DNA of 64,000 nt, taken from the NCBI RefSeq assembly GCF_002286985.1, contig NZ_NSKC01000003.1:248001-312000 (forward strand). Direction: 5' to 3'. Under the pieces are notes generated by a model. That model did not search any database. It was given only the letters and a program-made list of their open reading frames with translations, and was not told where the DNA came from. Both the position numbers and the translations under genes were made by a program. This document shows positions 14,634 through 36,820 of the stretch, in pieces (position 1 is the first letter of the stretch; the number at the start of each line of letters is the position of its first letter). This stretch comes from Halorubrum salipaludis. Lineage in GTDB: Archaea > Halobacteriota > Halobacteria > Halobacteriales > Haloferacaceae.

Positions 14634-14774
14634 ATGAGTGACGACCACGACCAGTCGGATTCCGATTCCGACAGCGACGAAGAGGAACCAACCCGTCTCG
14701 ACCGGCTTCGCGAGCTAAAGCTAACCTTGGAGGCGATCAGGATAGCCGCGAAGCTCGTCGAGATGTTGAAGTAG
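14634..14774 (+). CDS. 46-aa acidic/helical small protein
   Basis: ATG at 14634 starts a short frame ending in TAG at 14774. The N-terminal half is a run of Asp, Ser and Glu (DHDQSDSDSDSDEEE) and the rest is a predicted amphipathic helix (TRLDRLRELKLTLEAIRIAAK and on to LVEMLK). The bias of third positions and the composition look like a haloarchaeal protein. It lies between hairpins H1 and H2, with the stop codon inside a further small hairpin (AGTGG/CCACT, 14773-14788). No family recognised; a small adaptor or regulator of the element is a guess. Confidence 0.5.
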   Translation: MSDDHDQSDSDSDSDEEEPTRLDRLRELKLTLEAIRIAAKLVEMLK

Positions 14775-14791
14775 TGGAGTACGCCACTTAG

Positions 14792-14830
14792 CCGGCGTCT
14801 CCACCCGTAGGCAACTGAGAGTACCGCCGG
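14792..14830 (+). other. Hairpin H2 with the same loop sequence as H1
   Basis: Arms CCGGCG (14792-14797) and CGCCGG (14825-14830) enclose a loop beginning with TCTCCACCCGTAGGCA (14798-14813), identical to the loop motif of H1 although the stem sequence is entirely different. A weaker third hairpin follows at 14868-14896 (CCGACC/GGTCGG) with a loop starting TCTCTAC. The rest of the 14775-14971 gap shows no gene. Confidence 0.55.
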
Positions 14831-14971
14831 TATCGTATTAAACGATTTGGCTTGTATCTGTAGGTATCCGACCTCTCTACTACCACCACTGGTCGGCAGA
14901 CGAACTAGGAACCATCCACGCGTATCTGACCAAAGAACTTAGACAGTTAGTGTTCCAATTGTCACCTGTCG

Positions 14972-15709
14972 ATGTCCCACTCCGAAATTGAACAACACCC
15001 CATCCGTCATAGCCTCGGGCTTTCACGAGACTTGGCAGTGGGGACAGTCAAAACGTTCATCGACGCCCTGTTCGGAGTGTGGTTTCTGTACCTCGGTATC
15101 AATCTTGCTGAGTCGTTTATCCGCGTAGATATCGGCTCTCTACTGATAGATTTAGTAGTCACTCCCGAATTTTTCTACTTTGTACTCATCAGCGTGGTCA
15201 TCTGGCGGGTTATGGTCGAAACAATAGAGCAGTCGGATAGTGACCAGACAGACGATCAGGAAGACTTAGATGAGATTATAGACAAATTCGGTTCATCGAA
15301 GAAGTTGGATAAGATCTATCGCGGAGCCATGTTCATGGTCATGAACGATCTGTACAAGGGAGTGGCCTGTGGTTCCGGAGCTTCCTTAGCCATTCTGTTG
15401 ACCGGCGATATCCCAACGGGGCTCGCTGTATTGCCTGTGGTACTTATCCCAGCAGTGGAAGTTGCTCTTGTAAAATCAGGTAGGCAAGGCCCGATGTTCG
15501 TTATAGCGTACTTGACGCTACTTCCACTGATATTTCCGATTTTCTTTACAGCACTGGTGGTCTATAGTATCCGGAGGACACCGGATGCGATGTTCAAAGC
15601 TTGGGAGATCGTTTTGGCACCATTTACTGCGATCCTTCAGTACCCTTACAGAGAGCGCTCAACTCTTGATACGCTTGGAAATCTACTTAATCGGCGTCGC
15701 CTTGGCTGA
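14972..15709 (+). CDS. Unknown polytopic membrane protein of the island
   Basis: The 245-aa product has about five hydrophobic segments: FIDALFGVWFLYLGINLAE, FFYFVLISVVIWRVMV, ASLAILLTGDIPTGLAVL with LPVVLIPAVEVALV, and FVIAYLTLLPLIFPIFFTAL. A charged cytoplasmic loop (SDSDQTDDQEDLDEIIDKFG) lies between the second and third. Codon use is much more AT-tolerant than that of neighbouring core genes. No family recognised. Its 3' end overlaps the convergent 82-aa gene by 23 bp. Confidence 0.6.
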   Translation: MSHSEIEQHPIRHSLGLSRDLAVGTVKTFIDALFGVWFLYLGINLAESFIRVDIGSLLIDLVVTPEFFYFVLISVVIWRVMVETIEQSDSDQTDDQEDLDEIIDKFGSSKKLDKIYRGAMFMVMNDLYKGVACGSGASLAILLTGDIPTGLAVLPVVLIPAVEVALVKSGRQGPMFVIAYLTLLPLIFPIFFTALVVYSIRRTPDAMFKAWEIVLAPFTAILQYPYRERSTLDTLGNLLNRRRLG

Positions 15710-15935
15710 GTCTCGGCTGAAAATAAAACTTCCAATAAAACGCGGATATCGCCCCCGTTATCGTCAACCACGCGGGAACGAGAACTGGATATATTGTTGC
15801 TATATTCAATTGTAGTAGCCAGCCGATTGCACCAAGTACTACACAAAACAGAGTCGCTACAGCCACTCCAATTGAGATCGCCTTCGCCCCCTCCCGGCTC
15901 AATTTGATAAAATCGGGCGATCCCTCCGAGCTCAT
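15687..15935 (-). CDS. Small two-helix membrane protein of the island
   Basis: The 82-aa protein starts MSSEGSPDFIKLSREGAKA and has two membrane helices (SIGVAVATLFCVVLGAIGWLL and IYPVLVPAWLTITGAISAFYW) with a short C-terminal tail. GATAATGTA about 27 nt upstream on the minus strand is a plausible TATA box for a leaderless gene. The last 23 bp overlap the convergent gene. No family recognised; holin-like size and topology are noted but not claimed as function. Confidence 0.5.
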   Translation of the reverse strand: MSSEGSPDFIKLSREGAKAISIGVAVATLFCVVLGAIGWLLQLNIATIYPVLVPAWLTITGAISAFYWKFYFQPRLSQGDAD

Positions 15936-16064
15936 TATCTTCTGACAGTCAAAGGAGATACATTATCTTGTCGGCCAAGAATCTGGCTGCTACCCACAAT
16001 CCGACCCCTCTGAATAGTAGGCCGTTTTGTCTTCGTATTTGTACAGAATCGTGAAATCGAAGTT

Positions 16065-16211
16065 CTAGTCGCACATCGACATTCCTGAGTTTCCAAATAC
16101 GTCACAGGCTATCTCGGTCATATTCATCTCCAATCCCTCCACAATCAGGACTAACAACAGTATAAACACGATTCCCGCGGCTAGAACACCATACTGTATG
16201 ACATTTGTCAT
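16065..16211 (-). CDS. 48-aa single-helix membrane protein
   Basis: An ATG at 16211 opens a 48-codon frame ending in TAG at 16065. The product has one membrane helix near its start (YGVLAAGIVFILLLVLIVEG) followed by a short polar tail with two Cys (EIACDVFG... and a final MCD). On its strand TTTTTTAATA lies about 27 nt before the ATG, the classic position of an archaeal TATA box for a leaderless gene. It is divergent from the 36-aa gene at 16318. No family recognised. Confidence 0.5.
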   Translation of the reverse strand: MTNVIQYGVLAAGIVFILLLVLIVEGLEMNMTEIACDVFGNSGMSMCD

Positions 16212-16317
16212 ACCCTGTGTTCGAATTTCGCTATTAAAAAACCTGCTCGCTCCTTACCGGAAACACGAAATCCCAACGAACACAAATGTTATTTTATACC
16301 CTTTCTATCGGCAGAAT

Positions 16318-16428
16318 ATGATACAGGCTCTCGGTCCTCTTGGAATATTGGGTGCCATCGTAATTCTAATCGCAGTCTTCGTATTCACGTTCCTTCTGCG
16401 CGAGGCGGGTATTATGCCCGGCAGTTAG
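16318..16428 (+). CDS. 36-aa single-helix membrane protein
   Basis: ATG at 16318 begins MIQALGPLGILGAIVILIAV, continues with a hydrophobic VFTFLLREAG and ends after 36 residues. TTTTATACC lies about 25 nt upstream, as for a leaderless transcript. The longer in-frame extension upstream is less protein-like. It overlaps the 3' end of the integrase remnant by 4 bp on the opposite strand. Function unknown. Confidence 0.45.
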   Translation: MIQALGPLGILGAIVILIAVFVFTFLLREAGIMPGS

Positions 16429-16990
16429 AGCCAATCGACCTTCTCACGCCCCCGGCGCTGCGCTGCTGACGAGTACGTCCCGTTGTAGTGATCGAGGAAC
16501 GTCTCCAGGTCTTCCCAGCCGCCCCAGTCGAGGACGAGCGGCGGGTCCACCTCCGCGTTCGCGAGGGAGGTCGCCCACGTCCGGCGGAGGTCGTGCGTGC
16601 TGAGGTAGAGCCAGCCCCGATCGTCTTCCTGGTCGGCGAGCTCCTCGCGGGCACTCTGGAGCCAGCGCCGGAGCGACCGGGTCGACGAGATCGACAGCAC
16701 CGGCTCGTCAGCTGACTCTTCGCGGACGTCGCCGATCGTCTGGATGCGTGTCGCGAGGTCGTTCTGGATCGGCGTCTCGCGGAACTTGTCGCCCTTCCCC
16801 TCCCAGACGCGGACCACCCAGACGGCGTCCGTCTCGACCACGTCCACAGCAACTTCAACGGGCCCGGCGTGGTCATCCTCGATGAGGTCGACCAGCTGCG
16901 CGAGACCCAGCTGCTCTACGATTTCCACCAGTTTCGCGGGCTCTCGTGGATCGGCATCGCGAACGACGGGACTTCTGAACGAAGCGACAA
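16425..16990 (-). pseudogene. Tyrosine recombinase (integrase) C-terminal remnant
   Basis: The minus strand encodes the catalytic C-terminus of a phage-integrase-family protein: VVRVWEGKGDKFRETPI, then STHDLRRTWATSLANAEVDPP with the His/Arg box, DWGGWEDLETFLDHYNGTYS with the Trp and the nucleophilic Tyr, and a basic tail. The N-terminal DNA-binding region is missing and the helix carrying the first catalytic Arg is not recognisable, so the gene is 5'-truncated or decayed. The readable segment fades at about 16990, only 20 bp from the stop codon of the lactate permease gene. It marks the right edge of the tRNA-Ala island. Confidence 0.75.
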
Positions 16991-27193: not shown

Positions 27194-30100
27194 TCAGTCG
27201 TCGCTCGACGCCTGGCCCGTCGCGTCCGACTCGGCGCCGGGAACGGCGGCGGCGGGTTCCGGCGGCTCCTCGCGCACGTCGGCGCCCTTGCCCTCGGCGA
27301 TGACCTCGGCGTAGGCGTCGGGGAAGACGCGCACGAAGTCGTCGAGCGCGGCCGTCCAGTCGTCGAGCAGCTCGGCCGCCCGGTCGCTGTTCGTGTAGGC
27401 GTGGTGGTTCTCGACGAGCCGGCGGAGCATGCGCTCGTCGGACTCGTCTAAGGTCTCCGAGACCGACACCATCCCGCGGTTCACGCGGTCGTCGAACCGG
27501 TCGTCGGGGTCGTACACGTACGCGACGCCGCCGGACATCCCGGCCGCGAAGTTCCGGCCGGTGTCGCCGAGCACGGCGACGACGCCGCCGGTCATGTACT
27601 CGCAGCCGTGGTCGCCCACGCCCTCGACGACCGCCCTCACGCCGGAGTTGCGGACGCCGAACCGCTCGCCGGCGACGCCGTTGACGTACACCTCGCCGCT
27701 CGTCGCGCCGTACAGCCCGACGTTGCCCGCGACGACGTTCTCGGCGGGGTCGTAGCCGGCCTCCTCGGGCGTGTCGATCACGATCCGGCCGCCGGAGAGC
27801 CCCTTGCCGAGGTAGTCGTTGGCGGCGCCGGACAGCTCCATGGTGATCCCGGACGCGAGGAACGCGCCGAAGCTCTGGCCCGCGTAGCCGTCGAACCGGC
27901 AGGTGACGGTGTCGTCCGGGAGCCCGTCGCCGCCGTGCTCGGAGACGACCCGGTTCGAGAGGGTCGCGCCGATCGCGCGGTCGACGTTCTCCACGTCGCG
28001 GGTGAGCGCGACGGGTGCGCCGTCCTCGATGGCCGGGCTCGCCTCCTCGATGAGGTCCCAGTCGAGCAGCTCGTCGATGCCGGAGTGCTCCTGCTCGCGG
28101 GTCTTCGTCCGGGCGTCGCCCGCGGGCTCGGCGATGACCGCCGACAGGTCGAGGTGTTTCGCCTTCTCGTGGTCGGTCTCGCGCTGGGAGAGGAGCTCGG
28201 GCCGGCCGATGAACTCCTCGACCTCGGTGTAGCCGAGCTCGGCCATGATCTCGCGGAGCTCCTGCGCGATGAACGTCATGTAGTTGATGACGTGGTCCGG
28301 CTGGCCGGGGAAGCGCTGGCGGAGGTCCTCGCGCTGGGTGGCGACGCCGACCGGGCAGGTGTTCTCGTGGCACTGCCGGGCCATCACGCAGCCCGAGGTG
28401 ACGAGCGAGGCGGTGCCGAACACGTACTCCTCGGCGCCGAGCGCGGCGGCGACCGCCACGTCGCGGCCGGTCTTCAGGCCGCCGTCCGCGGTGACGCGGA
28501 TGCGGTCCCGGAGGCCGGTCGCGCGGAGCATCTGGTTCGCCTCGGCGAGCCCGAGCTCCCACGGGAGCCCCGCGTTCTTGATCGACGTCTTCGGCGACGC
28601 GCCGGTCCCCCCGTCGTGGCCGGAGACGTGGACCACGTCGGCGTTCGCCTTCGCGACGCCGGCCGCGATGGTGCCGATCCCCGCCTCGGAGACCAGCTTC
28701 ACGTTGATGTCGGCCTCGGGGCTCGCTGCCTTCAGGTCGAAGATCAGCTGTTTGAGGTCCTCGATCGAGTAGATGTCGTGTTGCGGCGGCGGCGAGATGA
28801 GTCCGACGCCCGGGGTGGAACACCGGACGTGCGCGATCATCTCGTTGACCTTCTTGCCGGGGAGGTGGCCGCCCTCGCCGGGCTTCGACCCCTGCGCCAT
28901 CTTGATCTGGAGCTCGTCCGCGCTCGCGAGGTACTCGGAGGTGACGCCGAACCGACCCGAGGCGACCTGCTTGACGTTACACTCCTTCTCGGTGTCGAAG
29001 CGCTCCGGGGGCTCGCCGCCCTCGCCGGTGTTCGACTTCGCGCCCAGCCGGTTCATCGCGATCGCGTTGTTCTCGTGGGCCTCCGGCGAGATGCTCCCGA
29101 GGCTCATCGCGGCCGTCGAGAAGCGCTCCACGATCGACTCGACGGACTCGACCTCCTCGACCGGGACGGGGTCACGGTCGGACTCGAACTCGAGGAGGCC
29201 GCGCAGCGTCTGTAGCTCCTCGGACTGGTCGTTCACGAGCTCCGCGAACTCCCGGTACTGCTCGTAGTCGCCCCCGCGGACCGCCTGCTGGAGCGTCCCG
29301 ACCGTCTGGGGGTTCCAGCCGTGTTTGATCCCCGACGACCGGTGCTCGTACTCGCCCGTGGTCTCCAGTTCGGGGTCGGCGCCGAAGGCCATCGCGTGGC
29401 GCGTCCGGAGGTCGTCTTCGATCTCGCCGATCCCGATCCCCTCGGTGCGGATCTCGGTGCCCTCGAAGTACTCGCCGACGAAGTCGGAGTCGAGCCCGAC
29501 GGCCTCGAAGATCTGGGCGCCCTGATACGACTCCATCGTCGAGATCCCCATCTTCGCCATCGTCTTGAGGAGGCCGTCCTCCAGCGCGTGCCGGTAGGCG
29601 GCGAGCGCCTCGTCCTCGTCGGCGCCGTCGGGACCGGCGACTACGTCGGCGATGGAGGCGTACGCGAGGTACGGGTCGACCGCGTCGGCGCCGTACCCGA
29701 CCAGCGTCGCGATGTGGTGGACCTCGTGCGGCTCGCCGGACTCGACGACGATCCCCGCGCGGTTCCGCAGTCCGTTCCGGACGAGGTGGTGATGGACCGC
29801 GCCGGTCGCGAGCAGGCTCGGCACCGCGAGCCGGTCCGGCCCGACCGCCCGGTCGGAGAGGATCACGGCGTCGGCGCCGTCCTCGATGGCGGTCGCGGAC
29901 TCCTCGCGGATCCGAGTCACGGCGTCGACGAGCGAGTCGTCGCGGTCGTACGTCGCGTCGACGGTCACGGAGCTGAACGACGCCGCGTCCGGACCGTCGT
30001 CGTCTCCCGGCGTCCGTTCGCCCGGGCCCGGGAGCTCGCGCAGCGTGACCGTCTCCGCGTCGGTGAAGATCGGGGTCTCGGAAACGATCTGCTCGGCGTG

Positions 30101-31885
30101 TTCGGGGGTCTCGTCCAGCAGGTTCCGCTGATTCCCAATCCGGGTCTCCAGCGAGGTGACGAGCTCCTCGCGGATGTAGTCGATCGGCGGGTTCGACACC
30201 TGCGCGAACAGCTGCTTGAAGTAAGTGAACAGCGGGCGGTCGACGTCGGCGAGCACCGACAGCGGGGTGTCGTCGCCCATCGAGCCGACCGGGTCCTTCC
30301 CCTCCTTCGCCATCGGCTCGACGAGGTGGTTCAGGGCGTCGGTGGTGTAGCCGAACGCGGCCTGGTGGGCGCGCACGGTCGGCTCCGTCTCGTCGTCGTC
30401 TCCCTCGGCTTCGTCGTCATCCGACCCGATCCCCGCGGCGATCGCGTCCTCGTCGACGATGTCGTCGAGGTCGACCTGGCGCTCGCCGACCCACTCGCCG
30501 TACTTCTCGTCGGTGAGGCTCTCGAACACCTCGTCGTCGGGGACGATCCGCCCCTCCTCCGGGTCGGCGACGAAGATCTCGCCGGGCTGGAGCCGGCCGC
30601 GGCGCGTCACGTCCGCCGGCTCGGTGGGGAGCGCGCCGACCTCGCTGCCGACGATCAGCCGGTTGTCCTCGGTGACCTCGTACCGGCACGGGCGGAGCCC
30701 GTTGCGGTCTAAGACGCCGGCGACGCGGTCGCCGTCGAAGCCGATGACGAGGGCGGGGCCGTCCCACGGCTCCACGAGGGAGGCGTGGTAGTCGTAGAAG
30801 TCCGCGCGGGCCTGATCCATCAGGTCGTCGTCGCGGAACGCCTCCGGGATCAGCATCCGGAGGGTGTGCGGGAGGTCGCGGCCCGCCTGCAGGAGGAGCT
30901 CGACCGCGTTGTCGACGCTCGCGGTGTCGGACTGGTTCGGGTCGTCGATCACCGGCTTGATCGTGTCGAGCTCCGCGCCGAACGCCGGGTGATCGAGGTC
31001 GTTCTCGCGGGCGCGCATCCAGTTGACGTTCCCGCGGATCGTGTTGAACTCGCCGTTGTGGACGACGTTGCGGTACGGGTGCGCGAGGTGCCACGCGCCC
31101 AGCGTGTTCGTTGAGAAGCGCGCGTGGACTAAGGCGACGTGGCTCGCGAAGCGCTCGTCGGTCAGGTCGGTGTAGTAGCCGTCGAGCTGCGAGCCCTTCA
31201 GGAGGCCCTTATACACGACGCGCTGGCGGTCGAGCGAGCAGACGTAGAACCGCCCCGCCCCGTCGACCTCGGACACCGCGTTCTCGATCTCGCGGCGCGC
31301 GGCGTACAGCGCGCGGTCGAAGCCGAGGATCTCCGGGTCGGCGTCGTCGGGACGCGTCTCCTCGCTGGTGAACCGCTCGGCGAGCCCGGCCCCCTCGACC
31401 GGCGCGGCGAACAGCTGGGCGACCTCCGGCTCGGAGTCGAGCGCGGTCGCGCCCAGGTCCGCGTTGTCCGTCGGGACGGAGCGCCACTCTAAGACCTCCA
31501 GCCCGTACACCGAGAACACCTCCGCGATGACGTCGTGGATCTCGGCCTGGACGCTCGGTTCGGTCGGCATGAACACGGACCCGACCGCGTACTCCTCGGG
31601 GAGGTCGGCGTCGACGACCTCGCGGAAGAAGTCGTCCGGGCGCGCGACCATGATGCCGGCCCCGTCACCCGTGTCTTCCTCTGCGCCCGTCGTCCCGCGG
31701 TGCTCGAGGTTCTCCAGCAGCTCGACGGCGTCCGTGACCGTCTCGTGGCTCGGATCGCCGTCGAGGTCGACGATCCCGCCGATTCCGCAGTTCGAACGCT
31801 CGTCCGTTACCTCCGCAAGCCCCCCACCGTGGCCCGAGAGATCCCGCTCCGATACCCCCCGGGTGTTACTACGTGGCTCGGTCAT
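27194..31885 (-). CDS. gltB: Glutamate synthase, large (GltB-type) subunit
   Basis: The 1563-aa protein makes glutamate from glutamine and 2-oxoglutarate. In order: a 32-residue propeptide ending before Cys in NCGIGGIVDL (the N-terminal nucleophile of the class II glutamine amidotransferase), a central domain, the FMN/2-oxoglutarate synthase barrel (LGAKSNTGEGGEPPERF; KMAQGSKPGEGGHLPG; VSGHDGGTGASP), the 3Fe-4S cysteines CVMARQCHENTCPVG, and a C-terminal GXGXG-type beta helix (NDYLGKGLSGGRIVI). No small NADPH subunit is encoded nearby, so ferredoxin may be the donor, as an inference. The ATG at 31885 with TTTAAG about 27 nt upstream fits a leaderless gene. Confidence 0.93.
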   Translation of the reverse strand: MTEPRSNTRGVSERDLSGHGGGLAEVTDERSNCGIGGIVDLDGDPSHETVTDAVELLENLEHRGTTGAEEDTGDGAGIMVARPDDFFREVVDADLPEEYAVGSVFMPTEPSVQAEIHDVIAEVFSVYGLEVLEWRSVPTDNADLGATALDSEPEVAQLFAAPVEGAGLAERFTSEETRPDDADPEILGFDRALYAARREIENAVSEVDGAGRFYVCSLDRQRVVYKGLLKGSQLDGYYTDLTDERFASHVALVHARFSTNTLGAWHLAHPYRNVVHNGEFNTIRGNVNWMRARENDLDHPAFGAELDTIKPVIDDPNQSDTASVDNAVELLLQAGRDLPHTLRMLIPEAFRDDDLMDQARADFYDYHASLVEPWDGPALVIGFDGDRVAGVLDRNGLRPCRYEVTEDNRLIVGSEVGALPTEPADVTRRGRLQPGEIFVADPEEGRIVPDDEVFESLTDEKYGEWVGERQVDLDDIVDEDAIAAGIGSDDDEAEGDDDETEPTVRAHQAAFGYTTDALNHLVEPMAKEGKDPVGSMGDDTPLSVLADVDRPLFTYFKQLFAQVSNPPIDYIREELVTSLETRIGNQRNLLDETPEHAEQIVSETPIFTDAETVTLRELPGPGERTPGDDDGPDAASFSSVTVDATYDRDDSLVDAVTRIREESATAIEDGADAVILSDRAVGPDRLAVPSLLATGAVHHHLVRNGLRNRAGIVVESGEPHEVHHIATLVGYGADAVDPYLAYASIADVVAGPDGADEDEALAAYRHALEDGLLKTMAKMGISTMESYQGAQIFEAVGLDSDFVGEYFEGTEIRTEGIGIGEIEDDLRTRHAMAFGADPELETTGEYEHRSSGIKHGWNPQTVGTLQQAVRGGDYEQYREFAELVNDQSEELQTLRGLLEFESDRDPVPVEEVESVESIVERFSTAAMSLGSISPEAHENNAIAMNRLGAKSNTGEGGEPPERFDTEKECNVKQVASGRFGVTSEYLASADELQIKMAQGSKPGEGGHLPGKKVNEMIAHVRCSTPGVGLISPPPQHDIYSIEDLKQLIFDLKAASPEADINVKLVSEAGIGTIAAGVAKANADVVHVSGHDGGTGASPKTSIKNAGLPWELGLAEANQMLRATGLRDRIRVTADGGLKTGRDVAVAAALGAEEYVFGTASLVTSGCVMARQCHENTCPVGVATQREDLRQRFPGQPDHVINYMTFIAQELREIMAELGYTEVEEFIGRPELLSQRETDHEKAKHLDLSAVIAEPAGDARTKTREQEHSGIDELLDWDLIEEASPAIEDGAPVALTRDVENVDRAIGATLSNRVVSEHGGDGLPDDTVTCRFDGYAGQSFGAFLASGITMELSGAANDYLGKGLSGGRIVIDTPEEAGYDPAENVVAGNVGLYGATSGEVYVNGVAGERFGVRNSGVRAVVEGVGDHGCEYMTGGVVAVLGDTGRNFAAGMSGGVAYVYDPDDRFDDRVNRGMVSVSETLDESDERMLRRLVENHHAYTNSDRAAELLDDWTAALDDFVRVFPDAYAEVIAEGKGADVREEPPEPAAAVPGAESDATGQASSDD

Positions 31886-32351
31886 GGTACACACTCGTGA
31901 TCCGTCACTTAAAGGTATGACCCTGATAGGGGTAGGATCCATCGTACACACATTAGGGAATATAAGGTAATTATTCATCAGGGGTGTGTTCTAATGACGT
32001 AACTACTGTTCGATCAGAAGATACCCACTGGTGAGTAAATAACGCGGTTGTAATTTAGGATATCCGAGACGGAACGGGTCGAATTCGGAGCGTAATTTGG
32101 CAATCGTCAAGCCGCTACTCTAACGAGGATCGAGAGAGACCGCGGCGGGTGGCGTCGGAACCCGAAGCGAGGGGGAGGGATCGGAACTCGAAGCGAAGCG
32201 GGCGGGGACATCCGCGCGCGAGCGAGTACTTAGCCGACGCGATCGAAGTAGACGACGCGACCGAAGCCGGTGCGGGAACACGTCTCGGGAATACGTATTG
32301 GTCCGGCCGAGCGGGCGATTCCGAACCGCGATTCGCATCTCCGAACCGCAA
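31886..32351. other. Gene-free region with gltB promoter
   Basis: No convincing gene lies in these 466 bp. Next to gltB, on the minus strand, CCTTTAAGTG (about 31905-31914) is its likely TATA element. Then 31950-32110 is notably AT-rich, with GGGAATATAAGG and several short A/T tracts, which could be a control region or a site of past insertion. The part 32110-32350 is GC-rich and shows nothing recognisable. Confidence 0.4.
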
Positions 32352-32589: not shown

Positions 32590-35500
32590 TCAGCGTTCCC
32601 GTCGCCACCGAGCCATCGCCAGAACAGCCACCGCGACGGCCGTCAGCGAGTGTAGCAGGCCGAACCCGGGGACGTCTTCCGCGGTCGTTCGGATCGGCGC
32701 GTTCTCGTAGGTCGGCGTCGCTCGCTCCGCGTCGCCCGCCCGTGTCCCGTCCGCCTCATCGCCCGCCTCACCGCTCGCGGGCGATCCCCCGTCGTTTCGG
32801 GCGCCCGTCTCGTCGTCCGACCACGCGTCGGGCTCGGTCGCTCCCGCTCTCTCGGGGCCTCCGGTGTCCCCGACCGGAGTTCGCCCAGACACGGCGATCG
32901 GAGCGCCCGGATGCGGCGTCCGGCGCTCGGCGCTCGGACGGAACCCGACCCCGCCCCCAACCCCGGCGGCGGGATCGATCCGGTCGCCGCCCCCGCCGGG
33001 TCTCCCGGCCTCGCCCGCGTCCGGTCCGCCCGGTCCTCGGTCCCCGGCGGGCCCGGTCGGAGCCGTGCCTCCCGCCGACCCTCCGGCGCCGCCCGTTCCT
33101 CCGCTTCCGCCGGCTCCGGTCCCGCCGTCCGCGGGGTCACCGGGGGCGATCCGCTCGCGGTCGTCGCCCGCCGGACCGCCCGGGCTTCGCCCGTCGAACG
33201 TCACTGTCGAGGTCGCCCGGTGACCGTCCGGCGGGTCTGACGCGGCCTCGCGGAGGCGGTCGTCCGTGACGCGGAACTCAGCCGTGAACTCCTCGCCCGG
33301 CTCCGGTTCGCCGTCGGTGGGGAGCGCGTCCTTTCCGTCGGCGACCACGTAGAGCCCCGACTCGTCGACGTGCACTGCCGAGTCACGCGGGAGTCCGGCC
33401 GTCGAGTCGCTCGCGGTCGCCGCCTCGTCACTCGCGGTCGATCGGACGCCGAACTCGAGCCCGTCGAGTCGGCCGAGGTCGTCGCCCGTCTCGAGCCCGG
33501 CGCTCCGCGCCGCGGTCAGTCCGGTCAGGCCGGAGGCGTTCGCCGCGTAGACGACGGTGTCGTTCGCGGCGACGCTCTGCGATCGCGAGAGGGTATCACC
33601 CTCGATGGCGTCCCGTACCGCCGTCGCGTTGGCGAGATCCGAGCGGTCCGCTTCCGTCCCCGTGTAGGTGGTGAGCCCGTTCGTCGAGCGCCGCTTGACC
33701 GTCACCGTCGCGTTATCGCTCGTCGCGGCGATACCGTGTTCCGACCGGACCGAAAGCTCGTAGGTGCCCGGCGGGAGCGTCCCGTTTTCCCCCGGTGCGG
33801 TGACGGATTCGATCGACGACCCCGAACCGGCCACAGAGAAGCTCTCGTTCAGCGACCCGTTCGACGCCGCGTACGTGTTGAAGTTGAGCGTTGTCTCTCC
33901 CTCTGTCGGTGTCGCGAGTTCGATGGTGGCTATCGTAGTGTTAGTGTTCGTCTCTTCGATGTGAACAAAAGAGGAATTGTACGTAGATCCAATTTTAACA
34001 GGAGCAGTTTGTCCTGAAAAAACAGGCTCATTTGATGTGGGAACACTCGACACGAGTTCTTTGTCTTTTAGAACAGATACTGACACATTCCTCCGTTCAT
34101 TAGTATTTATATTAGTAAACTCTATACTGTATTCTCCCTCTTCTGAAACGTCAATACTTCTGTTAGTCGGCTTTGAACTCTCAAGGACAAATTGCTCTCT
34201 TTTTGACTCTGGATCCCGCTGTATTTTAGCAGCGATGTGTCTGGATGACTGAGCAGATCCAAACTGTGTTTGTATGTTGTTTTTAACAGATGTAGTGGGA
34301 ACCTTTGGTGATAATGATGTATTCTTAATGGAAATTTGTGTTTGGTTGATATTTGATTCTGATTGAATAATGTACTCACCTTCCGAAATCATAGATGTGT
34401 TAACAATTCTAAGGTTTTTATATTCGTATATGGGATCTTGGTGCACAGTTTGATTTTTTGAAACCGATGATATTGTTGCAGATGTACTTGAATTCAGTCC
34501 AACATATGAGCCCTGTATTGCAGAAATTTTTGTCTTATTTTCAATAAGGTGGGTAATCCGGCGAGGTTTGAATTTTGCTTTAGAATATGTACTATTGTAT
34601 GATTTTGATTCAATATTATTAATCGAAACTTCCTTTATATATGGGGGTCTTTGACTGTGCTCTGTCGTATTTAATAACAGATCAATCTGGTTTTTGTTGA
34701 TCCTGTACTGACCCTTATCTTCACCAATTTCGACAGTTAATTCTGGCTGATCAAAAAATTTCACAGAGATGTTTCCTTCTTTTGAACTTATATTTGTATT
34801 AACTGGTATTGATAGAGTTGAGTACGAATTGTCTTGTTCCAAATAATGTGTTGGCTTTTGAACCACTTCTATTTTAACTGGAAATTGAGCGGAGTTTCTA
34901 TCTACTGCGTATATGATGTCTATCTTTGGTTCTGTTTTTCCGGGGTGAATTGTTGCTGCAAGCTCAGTTTCACCACTTATATTGTTAGTATCTATTTTGA
35001 TCTCTTTCTGATTACCTTGTGCAGTTCCAATTTTTTGAACCAATTCTCCTTCTTCAGAACTTTTCCAGATGATAATATGGTCTGTTTTATTTACCAGATC
35101 TACCGATCCAAGAGATATCGTATTATTTTCATGATTGTAGGTCTTGTTCTGGAATGAAACCCTGCTAGACGAAACTATGGTGAAATCTACGTATCTCTCA
35201 CCACCTTCATCTTCTATAAGATATTCAATATTTCTATCAGAAATAGAAAGATCTCTATGATATTTACTTATATTTCTTGTAGTTATATTTGAAATTTTTA
35301 TATCAAATCCAGACCCATCTGGTACTGATTCATCAACAATAATGGTTGCATTATCCTTATTTGGATGTTTGATATACACATCTGAATTAGTTACATCCTC
35401 CCGATCTGAAACTGTGTATGACGAGTTCGCCTTATCAAGCTCAGCTCCTGCATTTACAAGATCTCCTACTCGTATTTTGATGTCGCCATTCACCCCTCGT

Positions 35501-35685
35501 GTCTGAATATCATATATCGTTTGATTTTCATTTTCTCCTATGTTGATATTATCTGCCCCACCAATACTCCAAACTGTTCCATTTACAGACACTACCCCAA
35601 TCCCGACCCCAATAACGGAGAACACACACAACGAGAGCGCGAGGGTACAGATCACCACACACCGAATTGTTGATCTCCGAGCCAT
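32590..35685 (-). CDS. Large PGF-CTERM surface protein with AT-rich N-terminal half
   Basis: This 1031-aa protein is secreted and anchored: a signal peptide (STIRCVVICTLALSLCVFSV) at the start, many N-glycosylation sequons (NxS/T) in the ectodomain, a Gly/Pro/Asp-rich stalk (about 830-990) and a C-terminal PGFGLLHSLTAVAVAVLA helix with RWRRER, the PGF-CTERM signal cut by archaeosortase A. The N-terminal about 575 residues (DNA 33.95-35.68 kb) are AT-rich with Asn, Ile and Lys codons; the rest is GC-rich. The gene is thus a mosaic. The ATG at 35685 puts the signal peptide directly at the start. Adhesion, S-layer-associated or receptor roles are possible; not determined. Confidence 0.8.
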   Translation of the reverse strand: MARRSTIRCVVICTLALSLCVFSVIGVGIGVVSVNGTVWSIGGADNINIGENENQTIYDIQTRGVNGDIKIRVGDLVNAGAELDKANSSYTVSDREDVTNSDVYIKHPNKDNATIIVDESVPDGSGFDIKISNITTRNISKYHRDLSISDRNIEYLIEDEGGERYVDFTIVSSSRVSFQNKTYNHENNTISLGSVDLVNKTDHIIIWKSSEEGELVQKIGTAQGNQKEIKIDTNNISGETELAATIHPGKTEPKIDIIYAVDRNSAQFPVKIEVVQKPTHYLEQDNSYSTLSIPVNTNISSKEGNISVKFFDQPELTVEIGEDKGQYRINKNQIDLLLNTTEHSQRPPYIKEVSINNIESKSYNSTYSKAKFKPRRITHLIENKTKISAIQGSYVGLNSSTSATISSVSKNQTVHQDPIYEYKNLRIVNTSMISEGEYIIQSESNINQTQISIKNTSLSPKVPTTSVKNNIQTQFGSAQSSRHIAAKIQRDPESKREQFVLESSKPTNRSIDVSEEGEYSIEFTNINTNERRNVSVSVLKDKELVSSVPTSNEPVFSGQTAPVKIGSTYNSSFVHIEETNTNTTIATIELATPTEGETTLNFNTYAASNGSLNESFSVAGSGSSIESVTAPGENGTLPPGTYELSVRSEHGIAATSDNATVTVKRRSTNGLTTYTGTEADRSDLANATAVRDAIEGDTLSRSQSVAANDTVVYAANASGLTGLTAARSAGLETGDDLGRLDGLEFGVRSTASDEAATASDSTAGLPRDSAVHVDESGLYVVADGKDALPTDGEPEPGEEFTAEFRVTDDRLREAASDPPDGHRATSTVTFDGRSPGGPAGDDRERIAPGDPADGGTGAGGSGGTGGAGGSAGGTAPTGPAGDRGPGGPDAGEAGRPGGGGDRIDPAAGVGGGVGFRPSAERRTPHPGAPIAVSGRTPVGDTGGPERAGATEPDAWSDDETGARNDGGSPASGEAGDEADGTRAGDAERATPTYENAPIRTTAEDVPGFGLLHSLTAVAVAVLAMARWRRER

Positions 35686-35951: not shown

Positions 35952-36626
35952 CTAGTGTTCGACCTGTTCCATCAGGGAGAAGAGCGACTCGGAGGCGTCG
36001 ACGGCGGTGGGATGGACGCCGACGAGCGCGATCACGTCCTCCTCGTGTTGGACCGTTCCGACGTACAGGTACACCGGAACGTCTTCGACCTCACCGCTCT
36101 GGCCGTCGCCGGCGTCGACCTCCGCGTCGACGGTCGTTTCGAGGATCGAGATCTCCACCTCCTCACCGAGGATGGTTCGGGTCTCGGACCCGCGGTCCTC
36201 GATGTCGCTCGCTTCAATGTCGGTGCCGTCGCCGCCGATCCCCTGCTGGTCGACCTGCTCTAACAGCCGTCGGATCAGCTCCGTGTCGTCCGCGCGGACG
36301 AGCGGGTTGACCGACTGCCCGCCGACCGACGCGTCCGGCGTGCTCGCCACGAACAGCGCCGATCCGTTGTCGGCGTTCTCGTACCCGGCGGCCCAGGTCG
36401 TCGCGGACACCTGCGCGTTCACGCCGGCAACGTCGAACTCCTGTTCGAGGGTGAACGACTCCGGGTCCTCTCCCTCGTATCCTGCTTCGGACGCCGCCGA
36501 GGACGGAACGCTGGCCGGTTCCGCGTCGAACTCGTAGCTGCCGTTCTCGCCGCCGGCGCCGGCGCACCCGGCGACCGCGACGGACCCCGATGCGGCGATC
36601 GCCGCGAGCAGTCCGCGTCTGTGCAT
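35952..36626 (-). CDS. Tat-type lipoprotein (DUF6517-like)
   Basis: The 224-aa protein starts MHRRGLLAAIAASGSVAVAGC, a twin-Arg signal with a lipobox (AGC), so it should be exported folded and lipid-anchored to the outer face of the membrane. The mature part is acidic and contains NPLVRADDTELIRRLLEQV and ILGEEVEISILETTVDAEV; from memory it belongs to a haloarchaeal family of unknown function, DUF6517. The start at 36626 places the RR pair at positions 3-4. It lies between the surface protein and a membrane protein, no operon evident. Confidence 0.7.
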   Translation of the reverse strand: MHRRGLLAAIAASGSVAVAGCAGAGGENGSYEFDAEPASVPSSAASEAGYEGEDPESFTLEQEFDVAGVNAQVSATTWAAGYENADNGSALFVASTPDASVGGQSVNPLVRADDTELIRRLLEQVDQQGIGGDGTDIEASDIEDRGSETRTILGEEVEISILETTVDAEVDAGDGQSGEVEDVPVYLYVGTVQHEEDVIALVGVHPTAVDASESLFSLMEQVEH

Positions 36627-36820
36627 ACCGATAGGTACGCCCGCTGGAACGGTTAAGCGTATCGCCGTGGACACGGCGATCTGATAATCTCGCGATACGG
36701 GGCCGTTCTGCCGGCGCTAGCGGCTTCGGAAGCCGGTCGATCTCGGGGGCGTCGCGTCGCGGTCGGGCGGGGGAGTCGAAGGCACAAAGTTCACGGTGTG
36801 TCGCGCGCGAGGTGAGCCAA

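Follow-up and report, generated by a model that had tools for sequence, protein, structure and literature searches.

Two-class trans-species polymorphism is a classic sign of long-term balancing selection, familiar from mating types, the MHC and malaria antigens, and no prokaryotic example of it was found in the literature that we searched. Several described systems come close to the locus reported here. The homeoalleles and homeocassettes of Halorubrum ezzemoulense are divergent variants that exclude one another at a single genome position and are exchanged via conserved neighbours, with both variants persisting (PMC11078007). The dimorphic merozoite surface proteins of Plasmodium falciparum come in exactly two highly diverged, long-kept classes (PMC10919680), and in the cell-wall island GI1 of Haloquadratum walsbyi surface glycoproteins are diversified via homologous recombination, which has been attributed to virus pressure (PMC4535781). 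The haloarchaeal S-layer glycoproteins (DUF7827; HVO_2072 family) share with the gene described below a signal peptide, a predicted beta-rich ectodomain, a related C-terminal domain and a PGF-CTERM anchor.

We analysed a window of 64,000 nucleotides of Halorubrum salipaludis DNA (contig NZ_NSKC01000003.1, positions 248,001 to 312,000), in which a reading frame of 1031 residues (ATG at 35685, stop at 32590) encodes a surface protein whose ectodomain occurs in the genus in two classes, A and B. The gene, its parts and its conserved neighbours are laid out as follows.

32590..35685, minus strand: whole gene, an S-layer-related, PGF-CTERM-anchored surface protein, class A allele
35596..35685, minus strand: signal peptide codons, assigned from sequence, common to A and B alleles within one clade; the left edge of the cassette falls inside them, at a median of nt 76 from the gene start
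33931..35609, minus strand: class A ectodomain cassette, the exchanged segment, AT-rich
33214..33930, minus strand: conserved C-terminal domain, GC-rich, a relative of the S-layer glycoproteins (DUF7827, below the cut-off); bounds the cassette on the right
32701..33195, limits approximate, minus strand: variable stalk, rich in Gly, Pro and Ala, likewise assigned from sequence
32593..32685, minus strand: PGF-CTERM tail with archaeosortase signal, membrane segment and basic end
27194..31978, minus strand: glutamate synthase, gltB-type, conserved neighbour and species marker
35952..36674, minus strand: DUF6517 lipoprotein-like gene, conserved neighbour on the side opposite gltB

The locus differs from each of the described systems. 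Homeocassettes, in the part of the report available, are multi-gene islands within one species, whereas A and B make up part of a single gene, between conserved ends that stay in frame, and are found genus-wide; none of the homeocassette functions described there is that of the A/B gene (PMC11078007). The P. falciparum proteins belong to a eukaryotic parasite, are under antibody selection and are unrelated by descent, whereas the A/B classes span some 50 species, and GI1 covers tens of kb of changing gene content in one species, where the A/B locus is a segment of a single gene that takes two states over a genus. The S-layer glycoproteins are separate paralogues, other DUF7827 S-layer-like genes being present in most of these Halorubrum genomes. 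The window protein stays below the DUF7827 cut-off of 27, scoring 15.3 bits as a whole and 21.1 bits with the C-terminal domain alone. The true S-layer paralogues have no sharp GC step; three of them (L084, L086 and L088) show a milder, gradual dip in the N-terminal part, with GC3 rising from 0.56–0.6 to 0.83–0.88. The PGF-CTERM model (TIGR04126) gives 19.4 bits for the window copy, under the cut-off of 24.5, and 28.7–35.7 bits for all four orthologue tails tested.

We searched 52 Halorubrum genomes, one per species, and found a match to the C-terminal half in 49 of them, an additional copy being detected by profile in G041. The gene is absent beside gltB in G005, and G020, with gltB at a contig end, was left out of the judgement of presence. 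In most loci the order AlkP-HNH-TMP-DUF6517-gene-gltB is retained, and most of the remaining ones keep gltB as a neighbour, so that we are dealing with a single orthologous locus throughout the genus. The exception is G041, where a class-A-like copy that carries an additional insert (L141:5694-13376) adjoins an S-layer glycoprotein gene, away from gltB, hinting at an origin of this copy through duplication of the S-layer gene.

The full-length ectodomains fall into two clusters, A (n = 18, including the window copy) and B (n = 20), with one B-like outlier, L080. Counting the outlier as B, the ratio is 18:21, near 1:1 (binomial p 0.75). Further genes that are incomplete, broken or displaced belong to class A in G039, G021 and G041 and to class B in G014, G051, G003 and G044, bringing the totals to 21 A and 25 B (L080 in B). 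In the Halorubrum genomes there was no third class, and none of them combined a full A with a full B cassette, so that A and B are divergent variants that exclude one another at a single locus, as homeoalleles do. The cassette is ~ 1.67 kb long and of similar length in both classes (~ 553 residues), and yet the two DNAs cannot be aligned and only one weak cross match was found in 360 A/B pairs of ectodomains. A profile comparison gave a weak match (37% probability) confined to the last 148 columns, which also match S-layer-like proteins; from these sequences, an ancient common origin of A and B is likely. Pfam gave only scattered weak matches to either ectodomain, no convincing relative of the A, B or C-terminal domain was found among solved structures, and AlphaFold models, built on a shallow alignment of only 2–3 sequences, had mean pLDDT values of 33 and 31.

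The exchange can be seen in two sister species, one carrying class B (L066) and the other class A (L067). Their flanks are ~ 95% identical, and identity falls to the random level of ~ 40% between gene nt ~ 45–60 and ~ 1725. Over 91 A/B pairs the homology ends at nt 76 (median) and resumes 10 nt before the start of the C-terminal domain. The sequence-only reading had proposed that the ectodomain was swapped while the anchor was kept, and had predicted that homologues would join conserved C-termini to different N-termini; the alignments bear out both, the signal peptide and the C-terminal domain being retained along with the anchor.

The gene also changes composition abruptly. In the window copy, GC3 is ~ 0.25 over residues ~ 41–570 and ~ 0.88 from ~ 600 onward, and the maximum likelihood change point lies near codon 574 (GC3 0.27 to 0.86), which upholds the switch within one frame noted earlier. 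GC at fourfold-degenerate sites is 0.23 in the ectodomain and 0.87 beyond it, so the step is an effect at the level of DNA, and amino-acid bias is excluded as its sole cause. The AT-rich tract is internal to the gene. The earlier placing of signal peptide and PGF-CTERM tail in opposite halves thus needs qualifying: the PGF-CTERM motif is genuine, but the codons of the signal peptide have an in-between composition (GC3 ~ 0.5–0.6) and do not sit squarely in the AT-rich part. The contig has a mean GC of 0.70 over the 452 kb examined, and at only two stretches does 1-kb GC drop under 0.50; the ectodomain is the lowest (0.324), the other reaching 0.462. This second stretch lies at 14649–16592 of the window (GC 0.50; the only other one in the 452 kb) and holds open reading frames without a Pfam match.

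A composition so extreme for its contig, in a class of genes that is often exchanged among haloarchaea (PMC4535781), could point to a recent import in which an AT-rich ectodomain, derived from a virus or plasmid of low GC or from a distant microbe, displaced the native one. As the mark of a replacement the step had also been taken in the sequence-only reading, which named what would speak against it, the same internal step in complete orthologues from many species. The same step is present in 39 of 39 full-length Halorubrum copies of both classes, GC3 rising from 0.22–0.39 to 0.74–0.92. We placed the junction by the C-terminal domain profile and located the GC change point independently of it; the two lie within 20 codons of each other in all 39 copies (median + 4 codons), so that the edge of composition is the edge of homology throughout. 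Fourfold GC over the 39 copies is 0.30 ± 0.05 in the ectodomain and averages 0.85 in the C-terminal domain. Ectodomain composition tracks the host clade (F 7.4, p 0.0007) but shows no dependence on class (p 0.92), which indicates that the AT-richness is old and resident, and the within-class trees track the species clades. Full-length cassettes are confined to Halorubrum among 392 genomes of the order, and no relative was found in viral contigs or in phage and plasmid records. We therefore consider a recent import very improbable, and for the window copy we rule it out on the genus-wide step, the clade-congruent trees and the lack of a donor. Nor does the segment have the traits of a recently acquired genomic island, the gene being genus-wide, its composition that of the host clade and no donor being found. 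An import before the radiation of the genus is possible.

How old the two classes are can be judged from the trees. Mapped onto the gltB tree, the class label must change 11 times, starred branches forcing at least 10 of these changes, against a mean of 12.2 after shuffling; mapped onto the tree of the C-terminal domain, it must change 12 times (shuffled mean ~ 13). Within each class, clades I–IV each form a single clade, the fewest changes possible, and ectodomain distances track gltB distances across each whole class, the correlation not being significant within the small sets of clade IV. Each of the four main clades contains A as well as B, near 1:1. Since every clade holds both classes and each class has clade-specific groups, the A/B split predates those clades, and the allele classes are more ancient than their host species, as in trans-species polymorphism. 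Inside the classes dN/dS is ~ 0.2, so that each class is functionally constrained, and positive diversifying selection within a class is rejected. Read from these sequences, the locus bears the marks of an intragenic trans-species dimorphism, in which lineages would repeatedly switch between two old classes.

Such a pattern might also arise under neutrality, if A and B were drifting homeoalleles that close species inside a clade frequently replace in one another without balancing selection. Free recombination and homeocassettes are on record for haloarchaea (PMC11078007), and the class label does look random on the tree; with one genome per species in the sample, repeated transfer among close species of a clade could yield the same A/B pattern. 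Drift, however, should have dropped one class in some clade during the lifetime of the genus, while both persist at ~ 1:1 in all four, and no third class arose. We regard the neutral account as a serious contender, though not a likely one. Phase or antigenic variation that draws on silent cassettes elsewhere in the genome would explain the cassette-like exchange with conserved ends, but the window genome has a single copy and no class B copy, and neither flanking repeats nor a recombinase gene, the marks of a mobile element, were found at the locus. Silent complete cassettes in the window's own assembly are ruled out by the single copy, and variation of this kind is hardly credible.

On balance, and by a slight degree only, we favour a dimorphic surface locus in which the cassette is swapped via its conserved flanks, both classes are held by balancing selection and the AT-richness is resident. 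The low dN/dS inside the classes, with no sign of diversifying selection, counts against it. Cell fusion or DNA uptake would bring A and B together in one cell, and polyploid cells heterozygous for the two would resolve through their conserved flanks, where homologous recombination or gene conversion would replace one cassette in full by the other, in either direction. In fused Haloferax cells, gene conversion of whole open reading frames has been described, even with a plant gene (PMC8223754). Balancing selection, probably negative-frequency-dependent, would then retain both classes if the outcome of an interaction, in all likelihood virus adsorption, depends on the exposed ectodomain. Viruses come first among the candidate selectors because S-layer-type proteins serve Halorubrum viruses as receptor or fusion trigger (PMC10544981, PMC8875312), and by this analogy a virus or predator cause of the dimorphism is plausible. 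It is much less probable that A and B are two cell-surface compatibility types, analogous to mating-type or self-incompatibility idiomorphs and kept by rare-type advantage; this suggestion draws on the existence of just two states and on what is known of haloarchaeal mating, which proceeds by cell fusion and is affected by surface glycosylation (PMC5496957).

For the low GC of the ectodomain under a dimorphic surface locus, we propose that A and B, being unable to pair, and the within-class alleles, being divergent, would let the segment largely escape recombination-linked GC drive, so that its silent sites would sit near mutational equilibrium. In Halobacterium, mutation alone would give ~ 20% GC (PMC9997560); by our arithmetic, starting from this value, silent sites reach a GC of 0.85 under a scaled GC bias of ~ 3.1 and one of 0.30 under a bias of ~ 0.5. 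Escape from GC drive is the weakest step of the explanation. In Haloferax the direction of conversion is independent of gene GC (PMC8223754), which weakens the GC-drive account, and pairing within a class in roughly half of encounters should count against the escape. The AT-richness might instead be selected in itself, for translation, folding, export or DNA melting, apart from the dimorphism. The constant position and level of the step in both classes would fit this, as would the milder low-GC N-terminal half of the true S-layer paralogues. A single mRNA that changes composition at the homology boundary does not, and silent divergence within classes, ~ 2 times greater in the ectodomain than in the C-terminal domain, fits relaxed constraint better; we think selected composition unlikely.

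Whatever its cause, an abrupt intragenic composition step need not signal recent horizontal transfer. The locus offers a natural experiment on the GC-richness of haloarchaea, a single gene having silent sites of 30% and 85% GC with the switch at the edge of non-homology. The A/B genotype is clean, two-state and readable in any Halorubrum genome, and any bearing it has on virus host range, mating and adhesion is directly testable.

Some alleles are altered. In Halorubrum halophilum the gene is naturally disrupted, a DDE transposase reading frame (PF01609; L006:528-1352) lying inside its class B ectodomain, and in G051 a frame break divides the class B ectodomain into two reading frames (L147:1553-4754), which could be a real pseudogene or an error of the draft assembly. 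Together these sequences suggest a protein that is dispensable, at least on occasion. Two other class B alleles (L046 and L051, in G009 and G031) are missing ~ 135 residues in the N-terminal part of the ectodomain.
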